Positions 48,629 to 54,086 of a DNA stretch of 57,621 nt are shown piece after piece. A program made the translations under genes and the position numbers. The DNA lies in NCBI GenBank assembly GCA_902806435.1, contig CADCWO010000115.1, positions 1 through 57,621 on the forward strand. Direction: 5' to 3'. This stretch comes from an uncultured Synechococcales cyanobacterium. Its GTDB lineage: Bacteria > Cyanobacteriota > Cyanobacteriia > Thermosynechococcales > Thermosynechococcaceae. The notes beneath the pieces are model-generated. The model did no database searches, had not been told where the DNA came from, and worked only from the letters and a program-made list of their open reading frames with translations. Every line of letters starts with the position of its first letter. Position 1 is the stretch's first letter.

Positions 48629-49702
48629 TTAGAGTTGTTTGAGCTTATCGCTCTCTTTTGGGGTGGTATAGAGTTGCATCACATCTTCAATTCCTAGCCG
48701 CGATCGCGCCCCCAACGTCAGGGCTGAAGTATGTCCTCGACTTAAATGTTCAGCAGCAGCACAGCCAATCATGGCTGCATTATCTGTGCATAGGGCTAGG
48801 GGGGGAAATAGGACTTGGATATTCTGCTTGGCAGCCGCTAGTTTCAACTGATCCCGTAGAGCTCGATTAGCAGCTACGCCACCCCCAACCACAATTGTGC
48901 TGAATCCATAATCTAAGGCACAGGCAATCGTGCGCCGAGTCAGGGAACGGGCCACAGTCCCCTGAAAACTCGCTGCTAGATCTGCTACCGGAAGCACAGA
49001 AGAATCTTGCTGCAGCTTTTGCACCAGTCGCAGCATTGCTGTCTTCAACCCACTGAAACTTGAGTCATAAGGATGACTACCACCACCCGGAAGCGAGATA
49101 TTACCCTCAGGGAGGCTGAATGCCTGGGCATTACCTTGAGCTGCTAGACGATCAATTGCTGGGCCGCCTGGGTAACTAAGGTTCAACAGTCGGGCAACTT
49201 TATCAAACGCTTCCCCAGCTGCATCATCCCGTGTTTGCCCTAGGATTTCGTAGTTTCCACAATCTCTGACGGCAATTAAACTCGTATGCCCACCAGAAAC
49301 CAGTAAGCACAAAAAGGGTGGCTCCAAATTTGGCTCAGCTAGATAACTGGCATAAATATGGCCCTCCAGGTGATGAACCCCAACCAGAGGTTTTTGGTGT
49401 GCTAATGCCAGAGTTTTAGCAGCAGTTAAGCCAACCAGAAGCGCTCCGATTAGCCCAGGTGCACAGGTTGTGGCAATGCCATCTATGGCAGACCAATCTA
49501 GACCTGATACTTCTAAAGCCTGTGCGATCGCCTGATTGATCGTTGCAACATGCTGGCGCGAAGCAACTTCCGGCACAACACCACCATATTCCTGATGGAC
49601 ATCAACCTGAGAGGCAACGATACTACTACAAACTTGACGATCTTGCACAACTGCAACCGCCGTTTCATCACAACTCGTTTCAATTGCTAAAACAGTTACC
49701 AT
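48629..49702 (-). CDS. tsaD: tRNA N6-adenosine threonylcarbamoyltransferase TsaD
   Basis: The catalytic subunit of t6A synthesis, 357 residues. It has [16 protein letters not shown], the metal-binding [22 protein letters not shown], and the nucleotide loop [12 protein letters not shown] plus [10 protein letters not shown]. It is near tsaB, its functional partner, although the two are not in one operon. Confidence 0.96.
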
Positions 49703-49862: not shown

Positions 49863-50411
49863 ATGCGACGATTGCTGGCTTTAATTCTAGTTATTAGTCT
49901 CTGGTTTGGTGTATCACCTTCTGCCTCTGCTGATGTATCTCGCTTAGTTCCTTGTGGTGACGTTCCTGCTTTCAACCAACGTTTAGATACTCAGATTCAA
50001 GGACTCGAGGGCCGTCTACAAAAGTATTCTGCTGATAGCGCTCCAGCAGGAATGCTGAAGAAGGATATCAGGAAGGCAGAAGCTCGATTTGAGCACTATT
50101 CTGGTTTCCTCTGTGGCCCAGACGGTTTACCTCGCTTGATTGTGGATGGTCGGCTAGGACATTTAGGTGAGTTTACACTCCCCGGCCTACTATTTCTATA
50201 CATTACTGGCTGGATTGGCTATGGTGGCCGTAGCTACCTCAGGAAGGTTAAAGAAAGCAAGGAACCTGAGCTGATGGAAATTCAGCCTGATGTTCCTCTC
50301 CTCCTGTCGTGCTTTGCTTCCGGTCTGCTTTGGCCTCTAGGTGCTGTTAAAGAAATCCTCAGTGGAGACTTGATCAACCAGGAGGGAGAAATCCCAGTTG
50401 GCCCACGCTGA
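49863..50411 (+). CDS. psaF: Photosystem I subunit III (plastocyanin/cytochrome c6 docking)
   Basis: The precursor has a signal peptide (RRLLALILVISLWFGVSPSA, cleavage at SASA-D) for thylakoid-lumen targeting. The mature protein begins DVSRLVPCGDVPAFNQR, contains the SGFLCGPDGLPRLIVDGR region, one membrane helix (GEFTLPGLLFLYITGWIGY) and a second near LLLSCFASGLLWPLGAV. It starts the psaF-psaJ-psaL cluster. Confidence 0.96.
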   Translation: MRRLLALILVISLWFGVSPSASADVSRLVPCGDVPAFNQRLDTQIQGLEGRLQKYSADSAPAGMLKKDIRKAEARFEHYSGFLCGPDGLPRLIVDGRLGHLGEFTLPGLLFLYITGWIGYGGRSYLRKVKESKEPELMEIQPDVPLLLSCFASGLLWPLGAVKEILSGDLINQEGEIPVGPR

Positions 50412-50480
50412 TCCCTGGGTGATGCTGGAATATTTTAGTAACGCTCACGCTCAACTTGTACTTCCATTCAGGAGGCCTCT

Positions 50481-50612
50481 ATGCAATCGGAATTCTTCGC
50501 AAAATATCTATCTAATGTTCCTGTACTAGCAGTTGTTGCATCTAGTTTATTATTGACCGCCTTCATCTTAATTAACTGGGCCTTTCCAGACATTCTTTCT
50601 TTTACCCAATAG
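50481..50612 (+). CDS. psaJ: Photosystem I subunit IX
   Basis: A 43-residue single-span protein reading MQSEFFAKYLSNVPVLAVVA at the start, then a membrane helix and the end NWAFPDILSFTQ, clearly PsaJ. AGGAGG lies nine bases before ATG 50481. It lies 69 bases after psaF and is surely co-transcribed. PsaJ stabilises PsaF. Confidence 0.95.
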   Translation: MQSEFFAKYLSNVPVLAVVASSLLLTAFILINWAFPDILSFTQ

Positions 50613-50718
50613 TTTGCAACCTCCCACTTTAGGTAGAGATATATCGCTTTAAAGCTATTACAAATTGAGCTTGATTGAGTACAGGCTTAATTAGCTGTAG
50701 CAAAGCTCATGGCTTTTG

Positions 50719-50753
50719 AAACCCGTGATTATTACGTTAATAATCACGGGTTT
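50719..50753 (+). terminator. Strong hairpin after psaJ
   Basis: AAACCCGTGATTATTA and its exact complement form a 16-bp stem with loop CGT. Only a short T run (GGGTTTACTATT) follows, so it may be a terminator or a 3'-end stabiliser for psaFJ, separating it from the first psaL copy. Confidence 0.6.
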
Positions 50754-50885
50754 ACTATTGGAAGCAGTTCGATAAATTTATAAATAATTAACTTTTTTAA
50801 AGGTCGATTTTTATTTCGTGGTTAGAGTAGACTTCTCACTTAAAATGGTTGCACGATCATAGTTTAAAAAAAGAGAGATACACCA

Positions 50886-51353
50886 GTGATAGCTACTCCT
50901 AGAGATGTTACCCGCCCTGCTGGCGACCCACAGGTCGCTGATCTGGCAACCCCGGTAAATCAATCAGGGTTAGTCAAGGCTTACCTGAATTCTTTGCCTG
51001 CCTACCGACAAGGCCTTAGTCCTGCCACTAGGGGGTTGGTAATCGGTCTATTTCATGGCTACTGGCTGATTGGTCCTTTTGCAAAGTTGGGTCCCCTGCG
51101 GGACACGGACATCGCCAACTTGGCAGGTTTGTTCTCCACGATTGGTCTTGTGATTATTGCAACCCTGAGTGTGCTGGTTTATGCTGCCAGTAACCCGCCT
51201 AAAGCGACGGAGACAAACACGACTCCAAGGCCCCCGCAAGAACTTGAAAGCCCAGCAGAGCCTAGAGCTTGGGGTAACTGGGCAATTGGTTTCTTAATTG
51301 GTGGAGTTGCGGGCGCAGTCCTTGCCTACTTAGTACTCTTTTTCGTAGGCTAA
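50886..51353 (+). CDS. psaL: Photosystem I subunit XI, copy 1
   Basis: The 155-residue PsaL has TPRDVTRPAGDPQVADLATP at the N-terminus, the chlorophyll-binding GLFHGYWLIGPFAKLGPLR region, and two to three membrane helices ending AVLAYLVLFFVG. PsaL mediates PSI oligomerisation. GTG 50886 is the start, preceded by AAAGAGAGA, a leader nearly identical to that of the second copy. Compared with copy 2 it lacks about nine C-terminal residues and differs in the loop between helices. psaF-psaJ-psaL order is associated with tetrameric PSI. Confidence 0.94.
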   Translation: MIATPRDVTRPAGDPQVADLATPVNQSGLVKAYLNSLPAYRQGLSPATRGLVIGLFHGYWLIGPFAKLGPLRDTDIANLAGLFSTIGLVIIATLSVLVYAASNPPKATETNTTPRPPQELESPAEPRAWGNWAIGFLIGGVAGAVLAYLVLFFVG

Positions 51354-51445
51354 TCTTATTTGCCTACTTGACCCAGAACGGTATCAAGCCTGATTGTGTA
51401 CGTAAGCTTAAGTCTTCATTTAACTAAAAAAAGAGAGATACACCA

Positions 51446-51940
51446 GTGACAGTTACTCCTAGAGATGTTACCCGTCCTGCTGGCGACCCACAGGTTGCTG
51501 ATCTGGCAACCCCGGTAAATCAATCAGGGTTAGTCAAGGCTTACCTGAGTATTCTGCCTGCCTACCGGAAAGGACTAAGCCCAACCCGCAGGGGATTGGA
51601 AATTGGTCTATTTCATGGGTTTTGGCTAATCAACCCCTTTGCAAAGTTGGGTCCCCTGCGGGACACGGACATTGCCAACTTGGCAGGTTTGTTCTCCACG
51701 ATCGGTCTTGTAACTATTTCCTCTCTTGCCATACTGCTTTATGGGGCTAGTAACCCCCCCCAGCCCACAAGAACACTCACAACTCCTGAACCACCCAGTG
51801 AAGTCGTGAATAATCCACCAGCAGGCTGGGGTGGTTGGGCAATTGGGTTCTTGATCGGCGGAGTGGCTGGTGCAGTTCTGGGTTACTTTGTGGTTTCTAA
51901 TGTGGAAGTTATTCAGGGTCTGATTGGCCTGCGACAGTAA
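51446..51940 (+). CDS. psaL: Photosystem I subunit XI, copy 2
   Basis: A second intact PsaL of 164 residues, 92 bases after copy 1. The N-terminal 33 residues are almost the same as copy 1, and the KLGPLRDTDIANLAGLFSTI block is identical. It differs in the stroma/lumen loop (NPPQPTRTLTTPEPPSEVV) and has a longer C-terminus ending VEVIQGLIGLRQ. Start GTG 51446 with the same leader. It could be a condition-specific isoform; nothing in the promoter indicates which. Confidence 0.93.
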   Translation: MTVTPRDVTRPAGDPQVADLATPVNQSGLVKAYLSILPAYRKGLSPTRRGLEIGLFHGFWLINPFAKLGPLRDTDIANLAGLFSTIGLVTISSLAILLYGASNPPQPTRTLTTPEPPSEVVNNPPAGWGGWAIGFLIGGVAGAVLGYFVVSNVEVIQGLIGLRQ

Positions 51941-52017
51941 GTCTTCAAACTTGTAGTATCACCGGTTGCGAGGGCTTACAAACAATTTGAGCTCGCACAT
52001 TATTGGGACGTACACAA

Positions 52018-52483
52018 GTGATTAGTACTCCTAGGAGTTTTACTAAAGCTGCTAGTGATCTATAGGTTGCTGGCTTGGCAAGCTAATCAATGATTCTGGT
52101 CTAGTCAATGCACTGCTTAGTAACTTGCCTATTTGTCGTCGTGGTTTATCTCCGCTGCGAAGAGGGCTTCAAGTTGCTATGGCCTATGGCTACTGGCTGA
52201 TTGGTCTTTTTACCACACTAGGTCCGTTCCGGAATAACGATCTAGCCAACAGTAGCAAGTAAACCAGCTAGGTTGGCTAGATCGTTATTATTGCCCTTTG
52301 CCTATCTCTCTACGGTGCCAGTAGCTATCTAAGTCCTCCAGAAACGCTCAGACATTTAGAAGGCTGAAATAGTTTTGATAGCGGTTTCTTGATTGGGGGG
52401 TTGGTGGTAAAACCTTTGGCTACTTCTTGCTAGGAAATCTTGATTTTCTGGAAGGGATAGCTGGCAAAATATGCAATAGCTAG
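52018..52483 (+). pseudogene. psaL: Third psaL copy, degenerate
   Basis: From GTG 52018 the frame reads VISTPRSFTKAASDL, then a TAG where the intact copies have Gln. After a frameshift near 52083 it reads NDSGLVNALLSNLP, GLSPLRRGLQVAMAYGYWLI, GLFTTLGPFRNNDLANSSK and stop. Later pieces include ALCLSLYGASSYLSPPETL and FDSGFLIGG. Order and spacing (572 bases from copy 2) show it is a third tandem copy. Several stops and shifts make it non-functional. Confidence 0.92.
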
Positions 52484-52532: not shown

Positions 52533-54086
52533 TTGTTAACGCTTCGGCAAACAGAAATCCAGCAAGCTGTTGTTAGTACCCATCAGATGCGTGAAATTGA
52601 AAATCGCATCTTTGCAGCGGGTATGCCGGTGGCAGCGCTGATGGAAAAAGTTGGGGGTCTAGTTGCTCATCGCATCCAGACCCTTTATTCTTGCGTTGAT
52701 TTTCGTCAAGTTGGGATTCTAGTTGGTCCAGGGCACAATGGCGGTGACGCTTTAGTGGTAGCCCGTGAATTACATTTTCAGGGTTACAATGTCGCGATCT
52801 ACTGCCCGCTGACTAAACTGAAGGAACTTACGGCTCAACATGCTCAGTATGCTAAAAATCTGGGCATTCCTTTTATTGAGCTTCGGGAGTTAAAGCACTG
52901 TAACCTGCTGATTGACGGGCTCTTTGGTTTTGGGTTGACGCGATCGCTAGAGCCACCGCTTAGTGATACAGTCAACGCGATTAATCAATGGTCCCAGCCA
53001 GTAGTGAGTATTGACGTTCCTTCTGGGTTGCACACCGACACAGGAGAGGTTTTAGGAGTTGCGATTCGAGCTGAGCGCACTTTTTGCTTGGGTTTGTGGA
53101 AGCTAGGGCTGTTACAGGAGCAAGCCTTAGAATACGTGGGAATGGCTGAGCTGATTGGCCTGAATCTACCCCTAACTGATGTAACCGCAGTTTTAGGAAA
53201 TCAACCAGGGATCCAGTGCGTCACTAAGAGCATGGTGATCGCCCATCTTCCCCTGCCTCGCCAATCCGTAACCCACAAGTACAAAGTTGGGCATCTCCTG
53301 CTTGTTTGTGGTTCGCACCGCTACGCTGGCGGTGCAATCTTAACCGGGCTGGGGGCCCGGGCCAGCGGGGCGGGGATGCTATCGATCGCAGTTCCAGAAT
53401 CTTTAAAGCCAACACTAACCGCCCAGTTACCGGATGCCTTGATTCTTGGCTGCCCGGAAATAAATGGGGCAATCGCCAGGCTACCGGATGGCACTGAGCT
53501 GAGTAACTTTGATGCGATCGCCTGCGGTCCTGGATTGACCATGGATGCCACCGCCGTTGTCAAGCAAGTTCTTAAAAGCGAGTGCCCGTTAGTACTGGAT
53601 GCCGACGGCTTGAATATTCTGGCCCAGTTAGGTCCAGTGACCGCATTATCGCAACGTCAAGCTACTACCGTTCTTACCCCACACTTGGGTGAATTCAAGC
53701 GGCTTTTCCGTGACCTAGCTGAGCCAATGAACCGGGTAATGGCCGTTCGGGCGGCGGCTGAGCAAACTGGAGCCGTGGTATTGCTTAAAGGAGCTAGAAC
53801 AGCGATCGCTGAGCCGCAGGGTTCTGCTTGGATCAACCCCGAAAGTACACCAGCCCTAGCGCGTGGTGGCAGTGGAGATGTGCTTACAGGTTTATTAGGG
53901 GGAGTTTTAGCTCAGACAGCTTCTCAACATCCAGGAGGGGAATTCGCCGCAGTAAGTGCTGCCTGGTGGCATGCTCAGGCTGGCATCAGAGCAGCACAGG
54001 AGCGAACTGAACTAGGGGTAGATGCGTTTACCTTGACCCAATTTTTAGGACCAACCCTAAAAGCAGCTCTCCAATCTACTTCCTAG
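52533..54086 (+). CDS. nnr: Bifunctional NAD(P)HX epimerase / ADP-dependent NAD(P)HX dehydratase
   Basis: Residues about 10-215 form the YjeF_N epimerase (MREIENRIFAAGMPVAALME, GILVGPGHNGGDALVVAREL, VSIDVPSGLHTDTGEV). Residues about 245-510 form the ribokinase-like dehydratase (KYKVGHLLLVCGSHRYAGGA, ACGPGL, PLVLDADGLNIL, LARGGSGDVLTGLLGG). The enzyme repairs hydrated NADH and NADPH. It starts at TTG 52533 with GAGGAAGAGGAA upstream. It lies directly after the psaL pseudogene. Confidence 0.94.
   Translation: MLTLRQTEIQQAVVSTHQMREIENRIFAAGMPVAALMEKVGGLVAHRIQTLYSCVDFRQVGILVGPGHNGGDALVVARELHFQGYNVAIYCPLTKLKELTAQHAQYAKNLGIPFIELRELKHCNLLIDGLFGFGLTRSLEPPLSDTVNAINQWSQPVVSIDVPSGLHTDTGEVLGVAIRAERTFCLGLWKLGLLQEQALEYVGMAELIGLNLPLTDVTAVLGNQPGIQCVTKSMVIAHLPLPRQSVTHKYKVGHLLLVCGSHRYAGGAILTGLGARASGAGMLSIAVPESLKPTLTAQLPDALILGCPEINGAIARLPDGTELSNFDAIACGPGLTMDATAVVKQVLKSECPLVLDADGLNILAQLGPVTALSQRQATTVLTPHLGEFKRLFRDLAEPMNRVMAVRAAAEQTGAVVLLKGARTAIAEPQGSAWINPESTPALARGGSGDVLTGLLGGVLAQTASQHPGGEFAAVSAAWWHAQAGIRAAQERTELGVDAFTLTQFLGPTLKAALQSTS

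Follow-up and report, generated by a model that had tools for sequence, protein, structure and literature searches.

PsaL is the protein that clips photosystem I (PSI) units together. The window analysed here, the whole 57,621-nt stretch that forms contig C115 of an uncultured Synechococcales cyanobacterium, carries two intact psaL genes and the remains of a third behind psaF and psaJ. This raises the question of whether both proteins are in use, and whether their differences bear on the oligomeric state of PSI.

Organisation of the psaF-psaJ-psaL array

The genome (4.79 Mb, 99.98% complete, assembled in 278 contigs) contains exactly three places recognised by a PF02605 (PsaL) search, with E-values of 2e-51 and 1e-49 for the first two and 5e-29 for the third, and all of them lie in this array. 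The preliminary description had read the locus as psaF-psaJ followed by three tandem psaL genes, the third dead, which the PF02605 search and the reading frames bear out. The array and its neighbours are arranged as follows:

48629–49702, reverse strand: tsaD, the divergent neighbour, which adjoins psaF at most relatives' loci and marks the conserved site
49863–50411, forward strand: psaF, the single psaF of the genome
50481–50612, forward strand: psaJ
50719–50753: perfect hairpin between psaJ and psaL1 (16 bp, loop of 3)
50886–51353, forward strand: psaL1, intact open reading frame with a GTG start, encoding the tail-less protein L1 (155 aa)
51446–51940, forward strand: psaL2, intact, with a GTG start, encoding the full-length protein L2 (164 aa)
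about 52018–52480, forward strand: psaL3 relic (PF02605 match at 52086–52403), with four in-frame stops and frame shifts
52233–52289: perfect inverted repeat of 18 nt inside the psaL3 relic, arms 21 nt apart
52533–54086, forward strand: nnr, encoding an NAD(P)H-hydrate repair enzyme, the right edge of the conserved site

L1 and L2 score 175 and 169.6 bits against the PF02605 cut-off of 25, and the conserved histidine of the first helix is His57 in both. psaL3 is a pseudogene, still recognisable as psaL, that combines stops within its PF02605 match (one TGA, two TAG and one TAA) with frame shifts and the inverted repeat. The arms of the repeat (52233–52250 and 52272–52289) occupy the position at which L1 and L2 have the stretch coding for LAGLFSTIG, and the repeat is likely the product of a template-switch mutation.

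The genome encodes a single PsaA and a single PsaB, and psaI is also single, located on another contig. With psaA/psaB, psaF and psaI each present only once, L1 and L2 serve one core.

The arms of the hairpin between psaJ and psaL1 are AAACCCGTGATTATTA and TAATAATCACGGGTTT. It is not a textbook terminator because no T run follows it, and it may separate the transcription of psaL from that of psaFJ. Separate promoters and terminators for the two intact copies were considered and rejected, the promoter scan having scored below chance; the sole promoter-like site (50716) overlaps the hairpin. A common upstream light-response element (HLR1) was likewise rejected, near-matches being rarer than expected by chance. 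Both GTG starts are preceded by a common leader, AAAAAAAGAGAGATACACCA.

Gene conversion and the age of the two intact copies

The differences between L1 and L2 had been placed in the inter-helix loop and the C-terminus. Both regions do differ, but the differences are not confined to them, and residues 34–63 differ too. The earlier account can also be extended, since two DNA tracts are almost identical between the otherwise differing copies:

50865–50988 in copy 1, partner 51425–51548: conversion tract A, from the leader to about codon 33, with 4 mismatches in 124 nt
51078–51151 in copy 1, partner 51638–51711: conversion tract B, codons 64–88, with 2 mismatches in 74 nt

Within the tracts dS is 0.08 and 0.17, while outside them it is 1.2 or saturated, with a dN of 0.27 and a dN/dS of about 0.12; there the copies differ by 36% and the amino-acid identity is 65%. 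The third-position identities are clustered (permutation p of 0.005 for the longest run and 0.0006 for the two longest). Gene conversion passes sequence between L1 and L2. The contrast between near-identical tracts and saturation of silent sites elsewhere indicates that the duplication is old and that the likeness of the copies is upheld by this exchange. Because both genes run on one clock, the dN/dS outside the tracts further indicates that each copy was under constraint for most of its life. The figure is compatible with L1 having been relaxed recently, and the argument weakens if L1 and L2 came from different lineages.

A mis-join of short reads might imitate such a pattern, either by creating copies or by creating tracts, and the 278-contig assembly and exact shared stretches short enough to confuse short reads would allow it. 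However, the divergence outside the tracts, the distinctness of the relic, the conserved tsaD and nnr genes flanking the array and the presence of tandem psaL in two other assemblies make an artefact of this kind very improbable. It is also improbable, if less so, that the two copies are interchangeable and merely raise the dose of PsaL or act as back-up, with conversion keeping them alike and their differences being immaterial. The converted leader and start regions, which give both genes one ribosome-binding stretch, would suit such a role, but the large differences outside the tracts fall on contact residues and on the tail.

Contact residues, loop and tail of L1 and L2

The nearest PsaL structure in the PDB is for both proteins that of the tetrameric PSI of Chroococcidiopsis TS-821 (7QCO; 3e-56 and 2e-52 for the two proteins), followed by Anabaena 6JEO; PsaL of the trimer 1JB0 matches at 9e-34 (L1) and 1e-33 (L2). 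For L1, though not for L2, PsaL of the monomeric algal PSI structures 5ZGB and 7BLZ is placed higher than 1JB0. These algal proteins resemble L1 in ending soon after the third helix; unlike the proteins of the window, they are eukaryotic and do not form a tandem pair. In the AlphaFold model of L1 (mean pLDDT of 82) three membrane helices adopt the PsaL fold, the last of them ending at residue 154 of 155, and the best structural matches of the model are PsaL proteins of PSI tetramers.

Kato et al. named the residues that form the contacts of the Anabaena PSI tetramer, including T58, F60, R61, N140 and S144 (PMC6821847). The preliminary description was right that the differences touch regions shaping oligomerisation, since they hit residues of this PSI-PSI contact (PMC6821847). 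At the five positions L2 has S, T, R, G and I, and L1 has S, A, T, G and I, so that neither carries the full set of bulky residues of tetramer-type PsaL. N140 and S144 are lost in both copies and R61 in L1 alone; R61 and N140 are present in 24 of 24 references of the tetramer-type clades. The position of Anabaena E65, occupied by glutamate in all 82 references, holds valine in L1 and keeps glutamate in L2.

A proline motif, NPPxP followed by PNPP, is reported to accompany non-trimeric PSI (PMC8827656). L2 retains half of it (NPPQP, followed by PEPP) and L1 has lost it (NPPKA, followed by PRPP), and the tetramer-type loop between helices 2 and 3, with both elements, is thus found in neither. 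Behind the last conserved Tyr position, after the third helix, the tail measures 7 aa in L1 and 17 aa in L2, compared with 11–18 aa in all references. In Anabaena, L166, I167 and L170 of this tail take part in the contact between PsaL subunits, and the end of the tail meets PsaB of the adjacent dimer (PMC6821847); in Synechocystis, alteration of the PsaL C-terminus converts trimers to monomers (PMC6328476).

Taken against the PsaL proteins of tetrameric PSI (Anabaena PCC 7120, 6JEO, 6K61 and 6TCL; TS-821, 7QCO), the window proteins are therefore alike in being closest to them among solved structures and in the NPP start of the loop, with L2 also keeping R61, NPPxP and a full tail. They are unlike them in reading PEPP or PRPP for PNPP and in lacking N140 and S144, and L1 in addition lacks R61, NPPxP and the tail.

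Oligomeric state of photosystem I

The gene order psaF-psaJ-psaL had been linked, on published work, to tetrameric PSI. It is not a reliable marker of that state, because among the genomes analysed the same order also occurs with PsaL proteins whose loops lack the proline motif (loci L073, L075, L098, L172 and L175). The link to tetramers retains some ground in the closeness of both proteins to 7QCO and 6JEO, but not in their contact residues, given the absence of N140 and S144. PsaL of Cyanobacterium aponinum (6VPV) belongs to a similar type by sequence, long stromal loop included; it has the feature of its own of forming trimers without a calcium bridge (PMC8428864), and its C-terminus is moved. 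As both window proteins have lost N140 and S144 and the 6VPV type forms trimers, the oligomeric state is unreadable from similarity. Residue-based rules for oligomerisation are likewise not firm, given the C. aponinum trimers. Mixed PSI oligomers may form, and the oligomer interpretation as a whole is only partly supported.

Switching under far-red light is not supported, since the genome lacks a second psaA/psaB. A far-red (FaRLiP) PSI set was not found in the genome, which has one psaA and one psaB and all its psaL genes in this array; far-red sets need a second psaA/psaB, and the system is therefore not FaRLiP. In FaRLiP strains a swap of PsaL isoforms accompanies a change of PSI oligomer (PMC8827656), so that the idea of such a swap is not new, only its setting. 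The FaRLiP pairs of Chroococcidiopsis thermalis PCC 7203 and Chlorogloeopsis fritschii PCC 9212 (PMC8827656) resemble the pair of the window in that one cell has two PsaL isoforms differing in oligomer-determining residues. However, FaRLiP PsaL2 is trimer-type and is encoded within the far-red cluster alongside psaA2, psaB2 and other genes, whereas both genes of the window lie in tandem behind psaF-psaJ, neither encodes a trimer-type protein and no second psaA/psaB accompanies them.

Distribution and origin of tandem psaL

Relatives share the order tsaD, psaF, (psaJ) and nnr: G002 of the same family has one psaL at this site, G006 and G008 of that family have none, and G048, which belongs to a different family, has one; in all four genomes nnr comes after psaL or psaF/psaJ. 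This recurrence indicates that the site was inherited and that the expansion to three psaL genes was a local event. Adjacent psaL genes, with all matches listed for 58 relatives, were found in this genome only. The arrangement psaF-psaJ-psaL-psaL is present in two of 19 genomes of the Chroococcidiopsidaceae group, the metagenome-assembled genomes YX2bin18 (L034) and Gloeocapsa sp. UFS-A4-WI-NPMV-4B04 (L035), and no other adjacent psaL pair appeared among the best matches listed for 390 genomes of the class and 391 of the order of that group. Tandem psaL is rare and is not unique to this genome.

Like the window, YX2bin18 and UFS-A4-WI-NPMV-4B04 have two psaL genes behind psaF-psaJ, one of which carries the L2 motifs; unlike it, the tail is full in both copies and the variant copy stands first. 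A third psaL was not found in these two genomes. The INPFAKL variant, with Asn for the Gly of WLIGPFAKL, occurs here only at L034:4947-5462, at L035:4136-4654 and in psaL2 of the window. At L034:2370-3602, tsaD beside psaF is split into three overlapping open reading frames, through either frame shifts or sequencing errors.

Other forms of psaL were encountered in the survey. A short C-terminal fragment with a stop lies at G045:C203:4974-5099, separate from the intact psaL of that genome. In several relatives from the window's family and in Chroococcidiopsidaceae, psaL ends an open frame of about 500 aa (G006:C111:34000-36600, L180; G008:C69, L184; G407-G412). These frames resemble the known IsiA/CP43-PsaL fusion.

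The preliminary description had called for a phylogeny of the copies to time the duplication. A clade was obtained, but its roughly 100 columns are too few for dating. Outside the conversion tracts, L1 and L2 form a clade with the first psaL copies of L034 and L035 (the ‘a’ forms) with support of 95/96, and when L1 is left out L2 joins the ‘a’ forms with 99/97; the motifs SILPAYRKG, INPFAKL, TPEPP and NVEVIQG are common to L2 and the ‘a’ forms. Together with the arrangement in L034 and L035, this would fit an old functional pair common to Chroococcidiopsidaceae that moved between lineages at the level of genes, L2 deriving from variant ‘a’ and L1 from a canonical copy. Such an origin, which is compatible with other readings of function, is nevertheless unlikely. 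AU tests on the placement of L1 and L2 leave alternatives unrejected (p of 0.07–0.29), among them L1 and L2 with the f26 lineage (0.20; L2 alone, 0.07). The order of the copies differs, and tsaD, psaF and PsaB of the window's genome do not group with Chroococcidiopsidaceae. Gene-level exchange with Chroococcidiopsidaceae, a very old shared pair and convergence are all candidate origins of L2.

The closest counterparts of this genome's tsaD, PsaF and PsaB come from families f26, f44 or f18, with G003 of its own family likewise close in PsaB; for PsaF the nearest are G053 (58%) and G045 (56%). The best match of PsaB (G000:C1:147766-149934) is that of G003 (91%); families f26 and f18 come next (86 and 85%), ahead of the small, Thermosynechococcus-like members of the family to which this genome belongs (83%). 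An import of the entire locus from Chroococcidiopsidaceae was rejected, as tsaD, psaF and PsaB are discordant and the nnr border is common to the window's family and f21. A phage or plasmid origin was also rejected: there is no phage match and no viral-contig relative, and the sole plasmid match, on one from Fischerella, stands at 33%.

A possible role for L1

The reading that we tentatively prefer, at just under an even chance, is that L2 is the main oligomer-competent PsaL and that tail-less L1 fits the PSI monomer and weakens PSI-PSI contacts. On this reading the tsaD/psaF-psaJ-psaL-nnr locus would have been kept vertically, with psaL multiplied in tandem there. L2, which keeps Arg61, the invariant glutamate, NPPxP and the full lumenal C-terminal segment, would be the ordinary PsaL of the cell and would join PSI units through the PsaL-PsaL contact (Type 1). 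L1 may fold as PsaL and could occupy the PsaL place of a PSI monomer; without the lumenal tail, it would lack the Type 2 contact with PsaB and one half of the lumenal contact of Type 1, and it has small residues (Ala and Thr) at the positions of F60 and R61. PSI units with L1 would then cap or loosen oligomers, and the ratio of L1 to L2 may tune PSI toward monomers or dimers. It is more doubtful that L1 competes with L2 for one PSI core outside the far-red system and so sets PSI oligomer size, with conversion keeping the shared parts alike and leaving the contact parts free to differ.

Against a capping role, the end branch of L1 is 0.75 in the unconverted parts, compared with 0.09 for L2. This fast branch, together with the change of Glu52 to Val and the loss of the tail, R61 and NPPxP, would also suit a duplicate heading for the fate of the dead copy that adjoins it. 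Such a duplicate would have hardly any function, if any, and would owe its partial likeness to conversion from L2, which alone would supply PsaL. Such decay is nearly as likely as the capping role, and is a substantial possibility in its own right. The lack of stops in L1 is weak evidence of function, since it is not significant under neutrality (P of 0.07–0.26), and the identity of the unconverted parts (65%) agrees with the 64% expected for an L1 evolving neutrally beside an L2 with silent changes only; neither figure decides the matter alone. The sole counter to the latter fit is the equal-clock argument: one clock with a dS above 1 outside the tracts, set against a total dN of 0.27, argues that constraint acted on L1 over most of its past. 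L1 also keeps 31 of 37 highly conserved columns, compared with 30 in L2.

The determinants of PSI monomers, dimers, trimers and tetramers are still argued from correlations among PsaL sequences. A single PsaA/PsaB with two PsaL proteins differing at those residues is a natural test of which of them count. If L1 is in use, the known far-red swap of PsaL would extend to ordinary light; a decaying L1 would show which losses follow once the contact function is no longer needed.
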